Shown here piece after piece: positions 20,615-28,622 of a stretch of 64,000 nt of DNA. Position 1 is the first letter of the stretch, and the number at the start of each line of letters is the position of its first letter. The position numbers and the translations under genes are program-made. The notes beneath the pieces are model-generated. The model saw only the letters and a program-made list of their open reading frames with translations, was not told where the DNA came from and did no database searches. Where the stretch lies: the NCBI GenBank assembly GCA_944322745.1, contig CALUPV010000009.1, forward strand, positions 1 through 64,000. Direction: 5' to 3'. Origin of the DNA: Candidatus Gastranaerophilales bacterium (GTDB taxonomy: Bacteria; Cyanobacteriota; Vampirovibrionia; Gastranaerophilales; Gastranaerophilaceae).

Positions 20615-23600
20615 CTAAATTTCAATTGAATTAAGTTGGCAGAAAGTTTTAAATCCGGAACGCTCCCTTGTTGCAAGTTCAATCATATTAGACAATCTTA
20701 ACTCTTTTGCTAAAAGAACAGCTTTATTATATAACTCGGAAGCAGTTTTCACATTTTCTGAAGAATATATATGCTTTGACTTCATAACTTCTTCCGTATA
20801 TTTTGCATAAGCAATATAAAGTTCAATTAATTGATATTTTAAATCAAATTGTTTAGCAAGCATAATTGATTTTTCCAAATACATTTTAGCAGCAACTAAA
20901 TCACCTTTCCTTTGATATATTTCCGCTAAGTATTTTTGGAAGTATATGATAAAGAAATAATTATTTATTTTAGGGCTTTGAGCAATCTCAAGTGATTTTG
21001 TTGCAGTATTTAAAGCCTTATCATCTTCTCCTGTTTCCATTGATAACTTGACTATTAAAGCCCAAGATAATAATGCACCAATTGCAACTTTTTCTTTAGC
21101 AAAATATGTAATTTCTTCATTATATATTTCCAATGCTTTGATAGTATTACCTTCTTCCTTTATAACAGCACCAAGTATTAATTTAATAATATTCTTTATA
21201 AAATGTTCATTTATATTATTGGTATATGCGGCTAGTTCGAATAAATCTACTTTTAAATCATTTTTTTGTCCTGCAAGCACTCTATTTATTATATTAACCA
21301 AATTCCACTCGGCAAGAAGACTTTTTTCCATATTTTTATTTTTATAAGAATTTGCTATATTATTCAACATTTCATTAGATTTATTAATATCACCCAATAT
21401 TGTTTTTGAAAAAGCCTCAATAATATCAACTTGTGTTAAATAATATGCGGTATTATAATTATACTTCTCAATAAATTCTCTTATTTCAGAAATAGTATTA
21501 ACAACTTGATTATTACCTTGTTGAGAATATGCTTTTGCCAAAGAAATCTTAGAAATTAACCAAGCATGTATAACTATATTTTTATATGAAGAATCCATTT
21601 GTTTTAAATTAAGTGCTTTATCCAAAGCAGGAATAATATCTTCATTTACAAGATTTATAATCTGTTCACTATTCCCTATATTCAATAGAGCTTTTAATTT
21701 TCTCGTAACGATAAGAGCTCTATCAAGTTCTGAGACATTAACCTGCAATGAGTCTAAAGATTTTATAATTGTATCAACAGCCTCTGCAACACCAAAATAA
21801 TTACCGGTTAAATAACAACTTTTTATAAAATAACCGGATAGATCTATAATTTTTTTCACATTCGACTCTTTTATCTCGAAATCTAAAACATTTGCCAAAT
21901 AAGTCACAGCCTCATTTGGAGACTTCTCACATAAAAGCTTTCCTATTTCTTCATATATTTGGGTTTTAACAAGTTCTGAGTCTGCAATATCTTGTTCCTC
22001 AAGTATCTTCAAACATTGCTTCTGTGCAATAACATATAAGTTTGTATCACCAAGCTTTGCCGTAATACTTGCAGTACTTTGCCATATTAAAAATGCTTCA
22101 TTTTTAGAAATTGCAGAAGTACAAGATATTAGTTTTTGTAAGTTACTTGAAAGAATCAAAGGCTTTAAAGATAGATAAAGTCTTTCTGAATTTTCTTTAT
22201 ACAATAAATCTGTTTTTGCTTCTTGATATATTAATTTCCATAAAGTAAGACTTTTAAACTCACAAGTATAATCATCAACTCTTTGAATAAACATTTCTTG
22301 TATTAAATAATCTAACATTTTCTCTGCTTTATTAACAGGCATTGTGACAGCTAAGCATAAAATACTTGTCGCAAAACGATATCCCATTATTGCAGCCATA
22401 AATAGTACATTCTTAGCACTTGGATTAAGAAAATTTAATCTTAGTTTTATTAATTCTTCAAATGAAACAGGATTAATCTCAGGTTTATTTTCTTCATTAA
22501 TCAGAATATCATTATCTTTTAACGAAATATAACCGGAATCAAACAATAAAGCAACCTCTTGTTCCATTCTTATTGCATTTCCATCTGATTTTTGTACTAA
22601 TTCATCTAAATGTTCCTTATTAAATATTTCATCAATTTTAATATAAGTACTCTTACTGACAGCCTTAATTAAATCTTCCTTTGAAAACTTTTTTATAAGT
22701 ATAGTTTCAAACATATTTTCATCAAGTTCTGACATATCAAAATAACTTTGAATAGACTTATTCTCCTGATATGCAACCAAAAGTTTTAATCTGTTATTAA
22801 AAAATCCTTTTTTCATCATATGAATAATAAAATCATATGAGGCACCATCTAAAAGTTCAAAATTATCTATTGAAATTATTAGGTTATTATTTACAAGAAA
22901 AGACTTTATAACCTTCTCCAATATAGAAAACATTTTCTGTTTATTCTCAAGTATATTCTCAAAATTATCCTTCTGAGATGGATAGAAAATATTCAGAAAA
23001 GAAGTAAGTTCATTACCGCCCAAAAAACTAAAAACCTTGGAAAAATTACTTTTTTTAAATTCCTTAATAAAAGATTCAGTACTGTTAGTATATGGAGGAA
23101 ATCCCATTATTCTAAGGAATGCATCTTGAAAAAACCCAAAACTTGTTATCTGGACAAGAGGAGTACAACTACCATATAAAGAAAGAAAACCTTTAGTTGA
23201 AAGATTATCGGCAACTTGTTTCAAAACAGCAGATTTACCGCTACCTTCAACACCATTTATGGCTATTACATGCTTTACTAGTGAGTTTTTTATCAGGTTA
23301 ATTGTTTTTAAAACAGCATCCTGCTGGATATCAACAAATTCACCTTCTTTTCTCTCAACATATTCTTTTGTTTCTTCATCTTCGGTATTATTCTGATTAT
23401 TTATTTCTATGCTATTCAAACTTTCTTCTACAGAAGAATCATATTCTTCGGTTAATTGTTCCACCTCAATATTTTCTGTCAAAATATCTTTTTCTTGCTC
23501 TGTAGAAGAATCTCTTTGCAAATTTTCATTATTGTCTGATGCATTTTCATCGACAGAATCATTTTCTTCAACATTTTCATCTTCTATATTAAATATTTTT

Positions 23601-24031
23601 TCCAAACCATCATCATTTAATTCGTCTACTAATGGTTCCACGAATGGAATTTCATCTTCTATTGTTGTTTGCAGGTCATTATCAAACTTTTCAGGATTCT
23701 TGATAATTTCATTATTAATATAAGAAGATTGTTGAGAACTAAAAGAACTTACAACTTCAAAATCAGAACCTACTTTCAAATTATCTTTAGACAGTGGTTG
23801 ATATTTTTCCAAGGAAGTATGACATTTTCGACACTCTGTAGCCGAATAAATATTAAGACTGCCACATACGGGGCAAGGTTTAAGTAACTCAAACCCACAA
23901 TTCTTACAAGATTTTGAGCCAAAAGAATTAATTGTCCTACATTCAGGACAATACATATTAACTTTTATTCCGCAATTGCTACATCTTATTGCATTGTCAG
24001 GTAACTCTGCACCACATCTGCGACAAATCAT
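20615..24031 (-). CDS. Triple zinc-ribbon, P-loop ATPase and helical-repeat regulator, 1138 aa
   Basis: The N-terminus holds three consecutive CxxC...CxxC zinc ribbons (C3/C6/C17/C20, C28/C31/C42/C45, C53/C56/C67/C70). Residues about 100-230 are acidic and low in complexity. A P-loop ATPase follows with Walker A GVEGSGKSAVLK near residue 258 and Walker B-like LIISIDNFELLD, then a winged-helix-like part and a long C-terminal region with TPR-type repeats (LAKAYSQQGN, YLAEIYQRKGDLVAAKMYLEKS). This layout resembles STAND/MalT or adenylate-cyclase-linked AAA regulators that switch on ligand or partner binding, but no output domain is recognised. It lies 8 bp after the sigma-like gene and is the last gene of that operon. 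Its exact role is unknown. Confidence 0.85.
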   Translation of the reverse strand: MICRRCGAELPDNAIRCSNCGIKVNMYCPECRTINSFGSKSCKNCGFELLKPCPVCGSLNIYSATECRKCHTSLEKYQPLSKDNLKVGSDFEVVSSFSSQQSSYINNEIIKNPEKFDNDLQTTIEDEIPFVEPLVDELNDDGLEKIFNIEDENVEENDSVDENASDNNENLQRDSSTEQEKDILTENIEVEQLTEEYDSSVEESLNSIEINNQNNTEDEETKEYVERKEGEFVDIQQDAVLKTINLIKNSLVKHVIAINGVEGSGKSAVLKQVADNLSTKGFLSLYGSCTPLVQITSFGFFQDAFLRIMGFPPYTNSTESFIKEFKKSNFSKVFSFLGGNELTSFLNIFYPSQKDNFENILENKQKMFSILEKVIKSFLVNNNLIISIDNFELLDGASYDFIIHMMKKGFFNNRLKLLVAYQENKSIQSYFDMSELDENMFETILIKKFSKEDLIKAVSKSTYIKIDEIFNKEHLDELVQKSDGNAIRMEQEVALLFDSGYISLKDNDILINEENKPEINPVSFEELIKLRLNFLNPSAKNVLFMAAIMGYRFATSILCLAVTMPVNKAEKMLDYLIQEMFIQRVDDYTCEFKSLTLWKLIYQEAKTDLLYKENSERLYLSLKPLILSSNLQKLISCTSAISKNEAFLIWQSTASITAKLGDTNLYVIAQKQCLKILEEQDIADSELVKTQIYEEIGKLLCEKSPNEAVTYLANVLDFEIKESNVKKIIDLSGYFIKSCYLTGNYFGVAEAVDTIIKSLDSLQVNVSELDRALIVTRKLKALLNIGNSEQIINLVNEDIIPALDKALNLKQMDSSYKNIVIHAWLISKISLAKAYSQQGNNQVVNTISEIREFIEKYNYNTAYYLTQVDIIEAFSKTILGDINKSNEMLNNIANSYKNKNMEKSLLAEWNLVNIINRVLAGQKNDLKVDLFELAAYTNNINEHFIKNIIKLILGAVIKEEGNTIKALEIYNEEITYFAKEKVAIGALLSWALIVKLSMETGEDDKALNTATKSLEIAQSPKINNYFFIIYFQKYLAEIYQRKGDLVAAKMYLEKSIMLAKQFDLKYQLIELYIAYAKYTEEVMKSKHIYSSENVKTASELYNKAVLLAKELRLSNMIELATRERSGFKTFCQLNSIEI

Positions 24032-24039
24032 AGTTCAAC

Positions 24040-24627
24040 CTAACTTTTACCACCGTCTAAGAAGTTACTTATTAATTTAGAAAGTTGCATTAATCTTTTG
24101 CTCACTTCTGATTGGGACAAATTCAAAGTTTTGGCTATATCTGCTTGTTTCAAACCTTTCATATATCTCCAATAGAAAATATCTAAGAACAGCTGAGACG
24201 GGACTTCTTTATGAATTATACATACAGCATCAGCTATTTTCTGTAAACAATCTTTAGTAATAAGAATTTCTTCTGCGGTTTCCTTTGGATCCGGAAAATC
24301 CAAAATAAAAGAAGGACCTAATGGTTGCGGTTTTACTTTAACACTGGAACTAAATTCCGGAACTTTAATTTCTTTAGTTGGCACAAATCCATCATTAGTT
24401 CTTCTAACTCTGCCGGAATTTTTAAGTACACTAAGAATAGAAGTATGGACTACTTTTGATACATAACTTTCAATTTTCTGAATATTTGATGATGAATTAA
24501 ATATCATGTAAGTTTTTTGAAAAGCTTCACTGCAAAAATCCTCAAACAAATCTTCATTGCCTTGAAAATTTTTATTAGCCTTCACAAACTTTTCTATTAA
24601 TGATCTTTGTTCCTCAACTAAAAGCAC
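24040..24627 (-). CDS. Sigma-70-family-like RNA polymerase sigma factor
   Basis: A 195-residue protein with a sigma region 2-like helix set in the first half (FCSEAFQKTYMIFN, YVSKVVHTSILSVLKNSGRVRR). At the C-terminus it has a region 4 helix-turn-helix (FYWRYMKGLKQADIAKTLNLSQSEVSKRLMQLSKLI). The size and order fit an ECF-like sigma, though the middle linker (about 65 residues, proline-rich) is longer than usual. It lies 48 bp downstream of the gene with the anti-sigma zinc finger, the classic sigma/anti-sigma pairing but in reversed order. It should direct RNA polymerase to a dedicated regulon when released. Confidence 0.82.
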   Translation of the reverse strand: MLLVEEQRSLIEKFVKANKNFQGNEDLFEDFCSEAFQKTYMIFNSSSNIQKIESYVSKVVHTSILSVLKNSGRVRRTNDGFVPTKEIKVPEFSSSVKVKPQPLGPSFILDFPDPKETAEEILITKDCLQKIADAVCIIHKEVPSQLFLDIFYWRYMKGLKQADIAKTLNLSQSEVSKRLMQLSKLISNFLDGGKS

Positions 24628-24675
24628 TAGTCTTTTTCTCTAATCTCGCATACCCAATAAATATAATAACATAAA

Positions 24676-27303
24676 TTATAATTTTATTACTACTTTTAGG
24701 TAATACATATCAGACTTAAGAGCGCTATCATTGAGTATCATGCTCTTTTCACCTTCAAAACTTTCTTTAATACTTTGTAACACAATATTATCAATTTCTT
24801 CCAAACCACTTGATTCAGAGATTATAACTTTCTGCAAATTACCGTTATTATCTACAGCAAACTTTGCAGCTACTGTGTCTTGGGGAGGCGTTTGTGTAGC
24901 ATTTAGAATATTATTTTTTAGATTTTGTTTTAAAGTATTGTCCAAATTCTGAAGATAGTTTTTAAATGTCCTGTCACTGAATAATTCGGAAGTACAGAAC
25001 CAATTTAAACCTCTAAAAGATACACCGCTACCACTTTGAGAAAAAGCATTTGCTATTGCTTTATTTACATCACCATGACTTTGTCTTTCTGTTGGCTTTA
25101 TTAAATCACTTTCTGTTAACGGAGGAACTGCAATAGTACCTGTAGTCGGCATACTATCAGTCATCGGATTTTCTACAGGCGGTTGAGATGTAATATTATC
25201 GGCATTAACAGTGTTCGTACCTTGTTCATAATTACCGGTCTCAATCGGTTGTTCAAACATATCATTTGTTTGTTGCTGATTTTGGATTTCTATTACATTA
25301 CTATCATTTTGTGTATCAGAAGCAACAACTTCCGTATTAGATTTATTCTTTAATAAAAAGAATGCTCCGCCACCTATAAAAGAGATCAGAACAACTATTG
25401 AAAGTACTAATAATGCAACTTTTGACGAACCTTTTGAAATTTTTTCTTCCGGTATTTCTACCTCCTCGTCATCATCATACTCTTGGTCATCGTCGTTATA
25501 ATCCTCATATTCTTGGGATTCTTCAGAATCATCATCCTTATATTCTTCATATTCTCCATCATCTTCAGAATCATCGTCTTTATATTCTTCGTATTCTTCA
25601 ACATCTTCAGAAGCATCATCTTTATACTCTTCGTATTTTTGAAGAGTTTCATCTGTTCCTGTAAGCTCTTCATCATCATATGATAATATTTTTTCTGTTT
25701 TATTGTCTTCATTCGTATCAGATACATCAATATCATTTTCTTCATTAATTAATTGTGAATTATTATCATCTATATCTACAACAAACTCATCTTTAGATTC
25801 AGCAAAATCATTATCTTGAGAAGTATCATCTATAGTTTCGTTTTCTGAATATATTTTTTCATCTGCTAAATCTTCTGTTTGTTCACCTTCCCCATATGAA
25901 TCTACTTCATATTCAATATCATCTGTAGCAGATAAAATATCATCATCAATTGGTTCTATTTCTGATGTAATATTCTCAGCTTCATTTTGATTTACGGGTG
26001 TTATATATGAATATACAGGTTTGTTATTTTCATCGTAATCTACTATTACCTTTTGTATATTATCTTCTTTATCTAATTGAAGATTTCCTGTATCCTCTGT
26101 AATTAAGTCTGCATCTTCAGAACTGTCAAGTATGACCATATCTTCCTTTTCATCCAATTCATCGGTAGTATTTGCACCAATAACTTCAATATCAGACTTT
26201 AAAGACAATTCTGAATAAATATCATCTTGTATAACTTCCATTTCATCATTGTTGAGAGTAATTCCCTGAGGTGTATCAACAGAAGAATAATCATCAATAA
26301 TTTCTAAATCATCATTTTGTTTATCCATATTCAGATTCTCAGTTGAGATATCTTCAATTACTTGTATTTCATTGTCTTCTTTTGTATTTGGAGAAGCTAC
26401 ATAACTATCTATTGATTTTTCTGTAACAGAATCAGTATCCTCAATAAAATCTTCCTCTATATTAAATAATTCATCTAAGATATCAGAAACCGTTTCCTCC
26501 CCTGTCTCCTCTTCTTCAGAATTATCATCAATATATATTGTTTCTTCTTTACCTTCATATTTTTTATCATCAACACTTTGAGAACCAATAATACTTAAAG
26601 TATGATCATCTAATAGTTCAGGATATTTGCTAGAATTACAACTAACCATTTCAAAACCTGTAAAGCAACAAAATTCGGTTCTGCATTCATCACATTCAAA
26701 TAAATGCTTTAAAATTTTATTTTTAGTTTGCTTATCAATTTCACTATCCATAAGACCAAGATAACTTTCTCTAAAAAGTTCGTGATCTTCATTTTTGAAA
26801 TTAACAACTTTCTTTTGTTGAATTTTCTTAAGAAAATCATCATAAGATATTAAAGAATCAAAGCCAACACTATAATAATGATAATCAAATGCTTCCTTTT
26901 CCATATTGGAAGTATCAGCTATTCCGATTAATTCTGCATTTTTTAGCTCCGAGTCAACTTTTATAACAATGTAGAAATCAGGAACAATATCTGCATCATA
27001 ATGTATTTTGGGTATTAAAACTGCATCACCACCGGTAACAATTCGAACATCCAAATGCCAATCGTTAACATACAAATCTGCGATTTCATATTGTTCATTT
27101 ATAAGAGGGTTTCTGAACAAAGTCATAGCTTTTTGTATTTCATATGGTGTTTTTTCTAAAATATTCAAAAAAGAATACAATGCTAAGATTGACGCATAAG
27201 CTCTCTTCCTTTGAAATTCATCAGCTAATAATGATGAATATATTTTGGCATATCCATACGATTTTTCATCTATCGTCAATTTTATTGTATTTGTAATACT
27301 CAT
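24676..27303 (-). CDS. Transmembrane anti-sigma-like protein with periplasmic TonB-C-like domain, 875 aa
   Basis: The N-terminal 190 residues resemble DUF1822, a cyanobacterial family often found beside sigma factors. They are followed by a zinc-binding anti-sigma motif HLFECDEC (H200, C204, C207). Residues about 220-620 are extremely acidic, including four 14-residue repeats (YEEYKDDDSEDDGE type). One membrane helix lies near 625-648 (VALLVLSIVVLISFIGGGAFF). The remaining about 225 residues would be periplasmic and end in a TonB C-terminal-like fold (AAKFAVDNNGNLQKVIISESSGLEEID). This is the first gene of an operon with a sigma-like protein and a large ATPase. The domains are read from sequence; the signalling role is inferred. 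Confidence 0.8.
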   Translation of the reverse strand: MSITNTIKLTIDEKSYGYAKIYSSLLADEFQRKRAYASILALYSFLNILEKTPYEIQKAMTLFRNPLINEQYEIADLYVNDWHLDVRIVTGGDAVLIPKIHYDADIVPDFYIVIKVDSELKNAELIGIADTSNMEKEAFDYHYYSVGFDSLISYDDFLKKIQQKKVVNFKNEDHELFRESYLGLMDSEIDKQTKNKILKHLFECDECRTEFCCFTGFEMVSCNSSKYPELLDDHTLSIIGSQSVDDKKYEGKEETIYIDDNSEEEETGEETVSDILDELFNIEEDFIEDTDSVTEKSIDSYVASPNTKEDNEIQVIEDISTENLNMDKQNDDLEIIDDYSSVDTPQGITLNNDEMEVIQDDIYSELSLKSDIEVIGANTTDELDEKEDMVILDSSEDADLITEDTGNLQLDKEDNIQKVIVDYDENNKPVYSYITPVNQNEAENITSEIEPIDDDILSATDDIEYEVDSYGEGEQTEDLADEKIYSENETIDDTSQDNDFAESKDEFVVDIDDNNSQLINEENDIDVSDTNEDNKTEKILSYDDEELTGTDETLQKYEEYKDDASEDVEEYEEYKDDDSEDDGEYEEYKDDDSEESQEYEDYNDDDQEYDDDEEVEIPEEKISKGSSKVALLVLSIVVLISFIGGGAFFLLKNKSNTEVVASDTQNDSNVIEIQNQQQTNDMFEQPIETGNYEQGTNTVNADNITSQPPVENPMTDSMPTTGTIAVPPLTESDLIKPTERQSHGDVNKAIANAFSQSGSGVSFRGLNWFCTSELFSDRTFKNYLQNLDNTLKQNLKNNILNATQTPPQDTVAAKFAVDNNGNLQKVIISESSGLEEIDNIVLQSIKESFEGEKSMILNDSALKSDMYYLKVVIKL
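25496..25641 (-). repeat. 42-bp tandem repeat coding acidic 14-residue units
   Basis: Copies at 25496-25537, 25538-25579 and 25580-25621, plus a partial copy from 25622, repeat with few mismatches (each begins TTATA and includes TCTTCAGAA). A more diverged copy precedes them. On the coding strand they encode YEEYKDDxSEDxxE units in the acidic spacer of the anti-sigma-like protein. A 42-bp in-frame unit could expand or contract by slippage without frameshift, changing spacer length. Confidence 0.8.
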
Positions 27304-27428
27304 AATCAGAAACTCTCTCTCTCAAATGCTAACAAATTATTAGTTAAAAACCCTCTATATATTAAGAGTACATTACGAAAATTTTTATTCCAAATTTACA
27401 AAAACTTTTTTTATGTATTTATATATGC

Positions 27429-27434
27429 TATAAT
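27429..27434 (+). promoter_or_regulatory. Extended -10 promoter of the 27566 gene
   Basis: TATAAT at 27429-27434 is preceded by TGC, giving the extended -10 form TGnTATAAT, with no good -35. It lies 130 bp upstream of the ATG at 27566, leaving a long untranslated leader. The gap of 262 bp separates two divergent genes. Confidence 0.45.
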
Positions 27435-27565
27435 ACTAATGGTTTACTTTGTGTTTAATATGACTTTGGTTTTATGTAAATTTTTGTAAATGTTGCAAAT
27501 TTAAATAAACAATTTTTTATAATCATATGTTTTATAAAGATACCGTAAAAGTTTAGGAGGTAATT

Positions 27566-27931
27566 ATGATTAATTCAGTAAGTTTCAGAAGTACAGCAGC
27601 AACATCAAGTTTTCAAGAAAGACTTGCAAAACCGCAAGCATATACAAAAGCAGATACTCCTGTAGCAGCTTCAGGTTTAAATAACGAAAAAGAGAAAAAA
27701 TCTTCTACAGGCAAAAAAATAGCAGGATTAGTTGTATTTGCAGCAGCAGTTGCAGCCGGTTTAGCTTTAGGAAAAGGAAAAATCGGAGCTTTAAAAGACA
27801 AAGTTAATAATGAAACACTAAAAAAATGTATCGGAGCTTTAGAAACAGCTGGTGGCAAAATAGCTGAACAAGCAGGAAAAGTAAAAGAATTCGTATTAAA
27901 AAAATTGCCAAAAACAAATGCCTCTGCATAA
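27566..27931 (+). CDS. Small membrane protein, lineage-type hypothetical, 121 aa
   Basis: A 121-residue protein with a polar N-terminus (MINSVSFRSTAATSSFQ), one hydrophobic helix rich in Ala/Gly/Val (about residues 53-69, IAGLVVFAAAVAAGLALG), and a lysine-rich amphipathic C-terminus. A strong AGGAGG site precedes the ATG and a clear terminator follows, so it is a real monocistronic gene. It resembles the gene at 28149 in design (short polar N-terminus, one Ala-rich helix, Lys/Ala helices after). I recognise the style from Gastranaerophilales genomes but know no function. Confidence 0.8.
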   Translation: MINSVSFRSTAATSSFQERLAKPQAYTKADTPVAASGLNNEKEKKSSTGKKIAGLVVFAAAVAAGLALGKGKIGALKDKVNNETLKKCIGALETAGGKIAEQAGKVKEFVLKKLPKTNASA

Positions 27932-28148: not shown

Positions 28149-28622
28149 ATGTCAATACAACCAGTACAATCAGCTCAAACATACAGTCCGGTTAAAAAGG
28201 CTGCAAAAACAGTTATAAAAGGAGCAATTGTTGCATCTGCAGTAGCTACAACATTAGCATTAGGTGCAAAAAGTGGAAAATTTGCAGTAAATGAAAAAAC
28301 TAATAAATTCGCAGCAAAAGCTTTACCTTATTTAGAAAAAGCCGGTAATTTTATAAATAAAAAAGCAGGTGAAGTTGTTGATAAATTTGCACAAACAGGA
28401 ATCAAGGAAAAAATTACAGGTTCAAAAACATATATAGTTGCAAAAGAAAAAGCAGAAGGAATTTTAACAAAAATAAGAGATAGTAAACTTCTGACAAATA
28501 TAAGAGAAGCCAGATTACAAAGATTTGTGGATAAATTCAAAACGAATATTGGCAAATATAATCCAGATAAAGCAAGTGTAGCAGATAAAGCAGCTGAAAC
28601 TTTTAATAATTTTGTAAAATAG
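28149..28622 (+). CDS. Small membrane protein, lineage-type hypothetical, 157 aa
   Basis: A 157-residue protein beginning MSIQPVQSAQTYSPVKKA, with a weakly hydrophobic Ala/Val/Thr-rich helix at about residues 22-39. Long lysine/alanine-rich amphipathic helices follow (KALPYLEKAGNFINKKAGEVVDKF). It looks like a relative of the 27566 protein in architecture but not close in sequence. A TTAGGAG site precedes the ATG and a terminator lies 20 bp after the stop. The function is unknown; a single-helix inner-membrane protein or membrane-interacting peptide carrier is possible. Confidence 0.78.
   Translation: MSIQPVQSAQTYSPVKKAAKTVIKGAIVASAVATTLALGAKSGKFAVNEKTNKFAAKALPYLEKAGNFINKKAGEVVDKFAQTGIKEKITGSKTYIVAKEKAEGILTKIRDSKLLTNIREARLQRFVDKFKTNIGKYNPDKASVADKAAETFNNFVK

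Follow-up and report, generated by a model that had tools for sequence, protein, structure and literature searches.

A probable membrane-spanning ECF sigma/anti-sigma module with a DUF1822 domain and a conserved promoter in Candidatus Gastranaerophilales

Organization of the locus

The window analysed here is a stretch of 64,000 nucleotides (contig 9) from the genome of a Candidatus Gastranaerophilales bacterium, a gut-dwelling non-photosynthetic cousin of the cyanobacteria. Three contiguous open reading frames lie on its minus strand in the order P1 (24676..27303, 875 amino acids), P2 (24040..24627, 195 amino acids, GTG start) and P3 (20615..24031, 1138 amino acids), with gaps of 48 and 8 bp, which confirmed the arrangement and sizes given in a preliminary description made from the letters alone. 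P1 is predicted to consist of a DUF1822 domain, a class I anti-sigma domain, an acidic spacer, a membrane helix and a TonB_C-like tip; P2 is predicted to be an ECF-type sigma factor; and P3 would combine three zinc ribbons, an acidic linker, an AAA_16-like P-loop ATPase and a TPR-like C-terminus. To the earlier description we add the DUF1822 match in the N-terminal part of P1, a conserved promoter facing P1 and a conserved divergent fourth gene. No RNA family at the gathering threshold and no tRNA was found in the window.

P1, an anti-sigma-like membrane protein

The N-terminal part of P1 (residues 9-168; 26800..27279, minus strand) matches DUF1822 (PF08852), one of the profiles that the preliminary description had named for comparison, with an E-value of 7e-12 and 45.5 bits against a gathering score of 25, the match covering only the first 167 of the 370 profile positions. 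Pfam searches found the same domain in 59 of 62 P1 relatives. The AlphaFold model of residues 1-247 (pLDDT 89.5) places an alpha/beta domain ahead of three helices (residues 171-224), and Foldseek gave no significant PDB fold match for it. The top matches, which we take to be PD-(D/E)XK nucleases, had E-values of 0.13 or worse and probabilities of 0.41 or less, and a nuclease-like fold for DUF1822 was set aside as a weak lead only.

Helices 1-3 of the putative anti-sigma domain span residues 172-224 (26632..26790, minus strand) and carry H200, C204 and C207, the HxxxCxxC motif that had been noted at 200-207. Their assignment is based on zf-HC2, which was found by Pfam in 36 of 62 P1 relatives (best E-value 5.7e-7), on RsiW (5wuq), which was the best PDB sequence match of the profile of the N-terminal 247 residues (E = 0.0055, residues 177-222), and on the model. 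The class I anti-sigma domain (ASDI) is described, in the part of PMC7406223 consulted, as a three-helix bundle, then a flexible linker and finally helix 4, the element binding sigma region 2, zinc being optional; P1 has the three-helix domain according to the RsiW match, zf-HC2 and the model. All three zinc ligands were present in 35 of 36 genus-like members and in 64 of 86 members overall in the aligned columns, suggesting that zinc is dispensable for the P1 family. The zinc site as an essential sensor was rejected, the ligands being incompletely retained in 22 of the 86 members. A candidate for helix 4 is the segment SDILDELF (residues 273-280; 26464..26487, minus strand): the motif [IL]L[DE]ELF occurs in all 36 genus-like members and in none of the 50 others, and this conservation is consistent with such a helix in the genus only.

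The very acidic spacer of the preliminary description was borne out by the composition of residues 240-615 (25459..26586, minus strand), with 38% Asp+Glu and 5% Lys+Arg, and is predicted to be cytoplasmic. The hydropathy profile showed one membrane helix, as had been claimed, placed at residues 629-651 (25351..25419, minus strand) instead of near 625-648. Beyond it, Pfam profiles indicated a TonB_2/TonB_C-like, putatively periplasmic end (residues 790-848; 24760..24936, minus strand). TonB_2 matched the C-termini of 39 of 39 relatives with an E-value of 0.01 or better; the C-terminus of the window P1 alone scored exactly at the Pfam cut-off (22 bits), and within the whole protein the matches to TonB_2, TonB_C and zf-HC2 all fell below threshold. 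Matches of the tip to TonB/TolA sequences of the PDB were weak (E = 0.31-0.95) and ranked after an ATP synthase subunit (0.057). The zf-HC2, RsiW and TonB_2 matches together support the proposed nature of P1, an anti-sigma-like protein of the membrane that ends in a TonB-C tip.

P2, a predicted divergent ECF sigma factor

Sigma70_r4_2 was detected in all 56 P2 relatives with an E-value of 0.01 or better, and Sigma70_r4 types overall in 55-56 of 56; P2 of the window itself is below the Sigma70_r4_2 cut-off (23.3 versus 25.7). Region 2 was found by Pfam in only 3 of 56 relatives, and the TIGR02937 match of P2, which spans region 2, scored 40.8 bits, under the cut-off of 42.9. Of the region 2/region 4 protein described previously, region 4 was therefore clear in the relatives, and region 2 is suggested by the sub-cut-off TIGR02937 match and by the fold. 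The model of P2 (pLDDT 81, pTM 0.41) has helices within residues 4-71, three of them where region 2 is expected, then a linker and helices within residues 118-192. Its five best Foldseek matches were all chains of ECF sigma factors (probability 1.00, best E-value 7.7e-4), with whole-chain TM-scores of about 0.25-0.33, which are low probably because the two domains are differently placed. From these profiles and the model, P2 is predicted to be a divergent ECF sigma factor.

The genome of the window has 17 sigma-70 family matches, 10 of them above the cut-off, and P2 is absent from those 10. A textbook ECF sigma/zf-HC2 pair is present on contig 12 (L268:2631-3933), so that P2 is not the sole ECF of this genome. 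Our literature search for Gastranaerophilales together with sigma factor found no paper.

P3, a predicted zinc-ribbon ATPase

For P3, too, the earlier prediction, an ATPase with zinc ribbons and TPR-like repeats, was supported. Six CxxC motifs make up the three ribbons; in the Walker A site GVEGSGKS (residues 260-267; 23231..23254, minus strand), G263, G265 and K266 are invariant in 69 of 69 relatives, and D395 is also invariant in the 69 sequences. The repeats matched TPR_MalT at 3e-7, though under its cut-off, and AAA_16 was matched at 1e-4, below the Pfam cut-off. Domain profile searches recognised no effector domain in P3, and neither a PDB sequence match nor a match on plasmids was obtained. 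A nucleotide-cyclase-like remnant, seen by eye in the P3 linker of other families, was discarded when four sequences proved negative against Pfam and the PDB. A similar FNIE stretch lies in the acidic segments of P1 (residues 274-284; 26452-26484) and P3 (residues 142-152; 23576-23608), and it is weakly conserved in P3.

Conservation and gene order

Similarity to P2 was used to rank 171 named loci, of which the best 80 were compared. Most of these 80 bear the title Candidatus Gastranaerophilales or uncultured bacterium, and their isolate names often indicate animal guts. Within them, P1 and P2 were adjacent in 78 and all three genes in 72. Searches of 58 genomes detected P1 in 54 of them, P2 in 55 and P3 in 56; the three genes were jointly absent from G040 and G057, G056 had P3 without P1 or P2, and no P1 was detected in G047.

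Within the genus, P1, P2 and P3 were together in 31 of 31 loci examined, a count that excludes four genomes with the genes split over contigs (G012, G014, G016 and G027). In the 22 genomes from other families of the order, P1 and P2 were adjacent in 16, and P3 adjoined them in only three (G038, G045 and G048, the last at a contig edge); in one family (G039, G044, G047 and G050) the genes were apart or P1 was undetected. A fixed three-gene unit is thus supported in the genus but not in most of the other families sampled. Since adjacency of the pair exceeds that of the trio across loci and genomes, the P1-P2 pair is the older and firmer arrangement.

A conserved ECF-type promoter in front of P1

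Alignment of the DNA upstream of P1 from 29 genus loci revealed the motif TTGGAATA-N13-TGYNNTC. In the window, the putative ECF-type promoter GGAATA-N13-TGYNNTC is located at 27366..27391 on the minus strand, facing P1, and places a GGAA-type -35 box before the operon. Among the best 80 of 171 named loci, the motif was found upstream of P1 in 33 of the 36 genus-like loci and in 24 of the 33 others, with means of 0.01 and 0.005 in shuffled sequences; the 36 and 33 loci are the window together with those of the 80 that have P1 and more than 100 bp upstream.

Counted as exact matches, the pattern occurred 106 times in 34 genus genomes versus 35 times in the reversed control. Matching of site positions to P1 coordinates by hand placed a site in front of P1 in 32 of the 34 genomes (missing in G006 and G018), and 74 of the 106 sites lie away from P1. 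We opened 16 of these 74, all of which are within ORFs of at least 100 amino acids; the same is true of all 20 opened off-P1 sites when L191, L225, L245 and L246 are included. One recurrent off-P1 site (L194 and L198) is antisense in a glycine-cleavage gene. A looser form gave two matches in the window's own genome, the P1 promoter and one antisense within a coding frame.

With a stricter family form, 146 family genomes yielded 76 sites, spread over 73 of them, versus three in the reversed control; the 73 genomes without it include that of the window, whose own site does not fit this form. P1 lay downstream on the same strand in 27 of 30 fetched loci with family-form sites, and the remaining three sites were inside ORFs. 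The distance from the site to the called P1 start in the 27 loci ranged from overlap up to 442 bp, the called start being 437-442 bp from the site in L228-L231. Another motif form matched in 80 of 142 family genomes, as judged by motif counts alone.

Elsewhere in the order, outside this family, P1 has the strict motif before it in L051, L053 and L057, and a variant in L054, L055, L059 and L060 (L059 by eye). Two families are without the promoter in the loci sampled; the motif was not found before P1 in eight f3 loci (L052, L058, L062, L065, L067, L068, L070 and L071) or in the f7 loci L061 and L064. In the family whose genes are apart, variant motifs precede P1 (L055 and L060), and no motif was found at P2 (L056, L063 and L072) or P3 (L076 and L080). 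The motif recurs at P1 across loci, so that P1 is the most conserved target of this promoter class. The proposal that P2 and P1 are linked in regulation was thereby supported and strengthened, the link running through the conserved ECF-type promoter of P1, and since all 20 opened off-target sites lie in genes, P2 may mainly drive its own operon. According to the part of PMC8103513 consulted, autoregulation is predicted for about 55% of ECFs, so that a self-regulating sigma is in itself nothing unusual. An apparent lack of other shared targets is less ordinary, and the single-target status is not proven.

In many loci the ECF motif is preceded, as judged by eye, by another AT-rich element, which has TTACA and ATTATAACAT-like boxes (27400-27500, minus strand, in the window); from its sequence, it is perhaps a housekeeping promoter.

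A divergent gene for a small membrane protein

A gene on the plus strand (27566..27931), identified by synteny and hydropathy, encodes a protein of 121 amino acids with one hydrophobic stretch near residues 51-70. With a profile built from the genus, 54 of 66 loci showed a divergent homologue no more than 520 bp from P1, namely 32 of 33 genus-like loci, which were the seed, so that this figure holds by construction, and 22 of 33 others. With a widened profile, the number was 55 of 66 within 520 bp and 58 of 66 within 1.6 kb, and divergent homologues were also found in L061 and L064 of another family. From this synteny, the gene is a predicted fourth, conserved member of the module. It is followed by a homologue at 28149..28622 (plus strand), whose membership of the module is uncertain; equivalent second copies stand beside the first in many genus loci. 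No Pfam family was found for the 27566-27931 product or its homologue, the 28149-28622 product having no match above the cut-off, and no exact promoter pattern faces the 27566-27931 gene in its own genome. By eye, this protein and that of L267:8938-9390 (plus strand), which are otherwise different, share an SVSF-like N-terminal start, which could be a lineage-specific tag.

DUF1822 and sigma genes across the phylum

PF08852 matched 130 of 194 genomes sampled from the phylum and none of 14 control genomes. At loci outside the class, presumably those of photosynthetic cyanobacteria, the neighbour of DUF1822 matched the P2 profile in 20 of 30 fetched loci, each at 1.3e-4 or better. Eight upstream neighbours of DUF1822 were scanned, of which two were clearly of the sigma-70 family (TIGR02937, 5.6e-27 and 2.5e-25), three had weak sub-cut-off sigma matches and three had no match; on the downstream side, CHAT was found in five of eight proteins scanned. 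Profile alignments linked the DUF1822 of P1 with that of other classes (4.6e-8) and region 4 of P2 with the neighbouring sigma (5.7e-9 over 42 columns). PMC8195603, in the part consulted, describes DUF1822 as a TPR protein and notes that ECF sigma and DUF1822 genes occur next to those of EACC2-caspases, whereas the N-terminal model of P1 is alpha/beta and not TPR. DUF1822, which is of unknown function in Pfam, gains a predicted function from the P1-P2 module.

Proposed mechanism and alternatives

The domains, the folds of P2 and of the N-terminal part of P1, the synteny and the promoter-like site with its conservation were obtained by computation, and they suggest that the locus is probably a membrane-spanning ECF sigma/anti-sigma module that drives its own operon. 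From these, we infer the binding of the sigma by the anti-sigma, the recognition of the promoter by P2, the signal, the release and the work of P3 as follows. At rest, the cytoplasmic anti-sigma domain of P1, with helices 1-3 and the candidate helix 4 in the acidic spacer, would hold P2, and the TonB-like tip beyond the membrane may sense a partner in the outer membrane or the condition of the envelope. In the preliminary description, binding at the TonB-C end was suggested to release the sigma, with the ATPase modulating the response. Once its hold on P2 weakens, the sigma would join RNA polymerase and read TTGGAATA-N13-TGYNNTC before P1, raising the inhibitor P1, the sigma P2 and, where it is in the operon, P3. 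The response would be self-limiting because the inhibitor rises with the sigma. The output is most likely the operon's own P1 and P3, since no other opened site is in promoter position, and the divergent small membrane protein could be accessory to it.

The genome also encodes TonB (388 amino acids), an ExbB-like protein, two ExbD proteins and another TonB_C protein, and has one Plug-domain match, on contig 1. A receptor partner for the P1 tip is possible because of this TonB/ExbB/ExbD set and the Plug match, and competition of the tip with TonB is conceivable.

The same sites could belong to an ECF pair of the usual envelope-stress kind whose regulon is dispersed, with many weaker sites elsewhere and the operon promoter simply the strongest. 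Many ECFs control more than their own operon, and the 74 off-P1 sites, set against 35 in the whole reversed control, agree with this. However, every off-P1 site opened fell within an ORF, one recurrent site being antisense, and genomes that match the family form have about one site each; such a regulon seems rather unlikely. Alternatively, P1 might serve mainly to connect the inner membrane with an outer-membrane partner, structurally or as an energised link in the manner of TonB/TolA, the sigma circuit only setting its amount. This is a minor possibility in our view, since the genome already has TonB, ExbB-like and two ExbD genes and the helix of P1 is internal, after about 628 residues, unlike that of TonB, even though TonB_2 is found in 39 of 39 relatives, a promoter variant is found before P1 also in the family whose P2 and P3 lie apart from it, and the genome has the Plug match.

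By analogy with the DUF1822-sigma-CHAT loci, a STAND-like P3 could be the real sensor or effector, with P1 and P2 as its expression switch. The CHAT proteins downstream of DUF1822 in other classes (5/8 scanned), the neighbourhood of ECF sigma, DUF1822 and EACC2-caspase genes in the part of PMC8195603 consulted and the P-loop kept in 69 of 69 relatives fit this analogy. It is weakened by the absence of a recognisable effector domain from P3, by the separation of P3 from P1-P2 in most order families sampled and by the five CHAT loci themselves, in which a sigma match adjoins DUF1822 in two (L094 and L099) but not in the other three, and we hold it to be somewhat improbable. That P2 is a DNA-binding regulator without sigma function and the conserved site its operator, as the sub-cut-off sigma scores and the scarcity of Pfam region 2 (3/56) might suggest, is very unlikely: the site has the form of an ECF promoter, with -35/-10-like blocks at a fixed 13-base spacing near the P1 start, and the fold search yielded full two-domain ECF chains.

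The reading of the locus as a self-driven sigma/anti-sigma module can be extended to a broader view, possible but doubtful, in which DUF1822 marks an old sigma-linked regulator in several classes that, in the gut lineage, became an envelope-spanning anti-sigma, its sigma having one conserved target, the promoter of this inhibitor. The result would be a self-contained homeostat, with the TonB-tipped protein, P3 and the divergent small membrane protein as outputs. If the sigma is truly single-target, it would be a clean case of an ECF circuit regulating only itself, which bears on the purpose of such circuits. The site also provides a concrete candidate promoter for an uncultured gut order.

Comparison with known systems

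STAND NTPases combine a P-loop NTPase with sensor repeats and an effector domain. P3 has the domain order of STAND-like NTPases (zinc ribbon, AAA_16 and TPR) and their Walker A and B, and differs from them in that its AAA_16 score is sub-cut-off and an effector domain was not found. TonB is anchored in the membrane at its N-terminus and continues into a proline-rich linker in the periplasm; P1 shares the TonB C-terminal domain, as seen in the 39 relatives, but its helix lies at 629-651 behind a long N-terminal part. FecI-FecR likewise comprises a sigma and a membrane regulator with a periplasmic end, with a possible link to a TonB-dependent receptor. However, Pfam gave no match to a FecR domain in P1 at an E-value of 1 or better, and the P1 locus has neither this domain nor a neighbouring receptor gene, the Plug match being on another contig. 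FecI-type systems are also, in the part of PMC8103513 consulted, exceptions to self-driven expression.

The DUF1822-sigma loci of other classes are similar in that DUF1822 adjoins a sigma-70 gene and both partners are profile-similar to P1 and P2. Unlike P2, their sigma is mostly about 380-450 amino acids long and encoded first; unlike P1, the two DUF1822 proteins scanned have no further Pfam domain, and CHAT is downstream in five of eight.

The nearest likeness in plan is to the ECF/class I pairs. In RpoE-RseA and SigW-RsiW, as in P1-P2, a two-domain sigma stands beside a three-helix anti-sigma, often with HxxxCxxC and a membrane helix, and a GGAA-type -35 box and a self-driven operon are common among such pairs, as here, according to the parts of PMC7406223 and PMC8103513 consulted. 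Unlike these pairs, P1 has DUF1822 ahead of the anti-sigma domain, an acidic stretch of about 375 residues leading to the membrane and a TonB-like tip; the anti-sigma gene precedes the sigma gene; the operon includes a P-loop ATPase; and the module has so far shown one conserved target. The locus thus resembles a circuit for envelope sensing whose general type is known but whose set of parts is unusual, and is a variant of ECF/class I anti-sigma signalling that is new in its parts.
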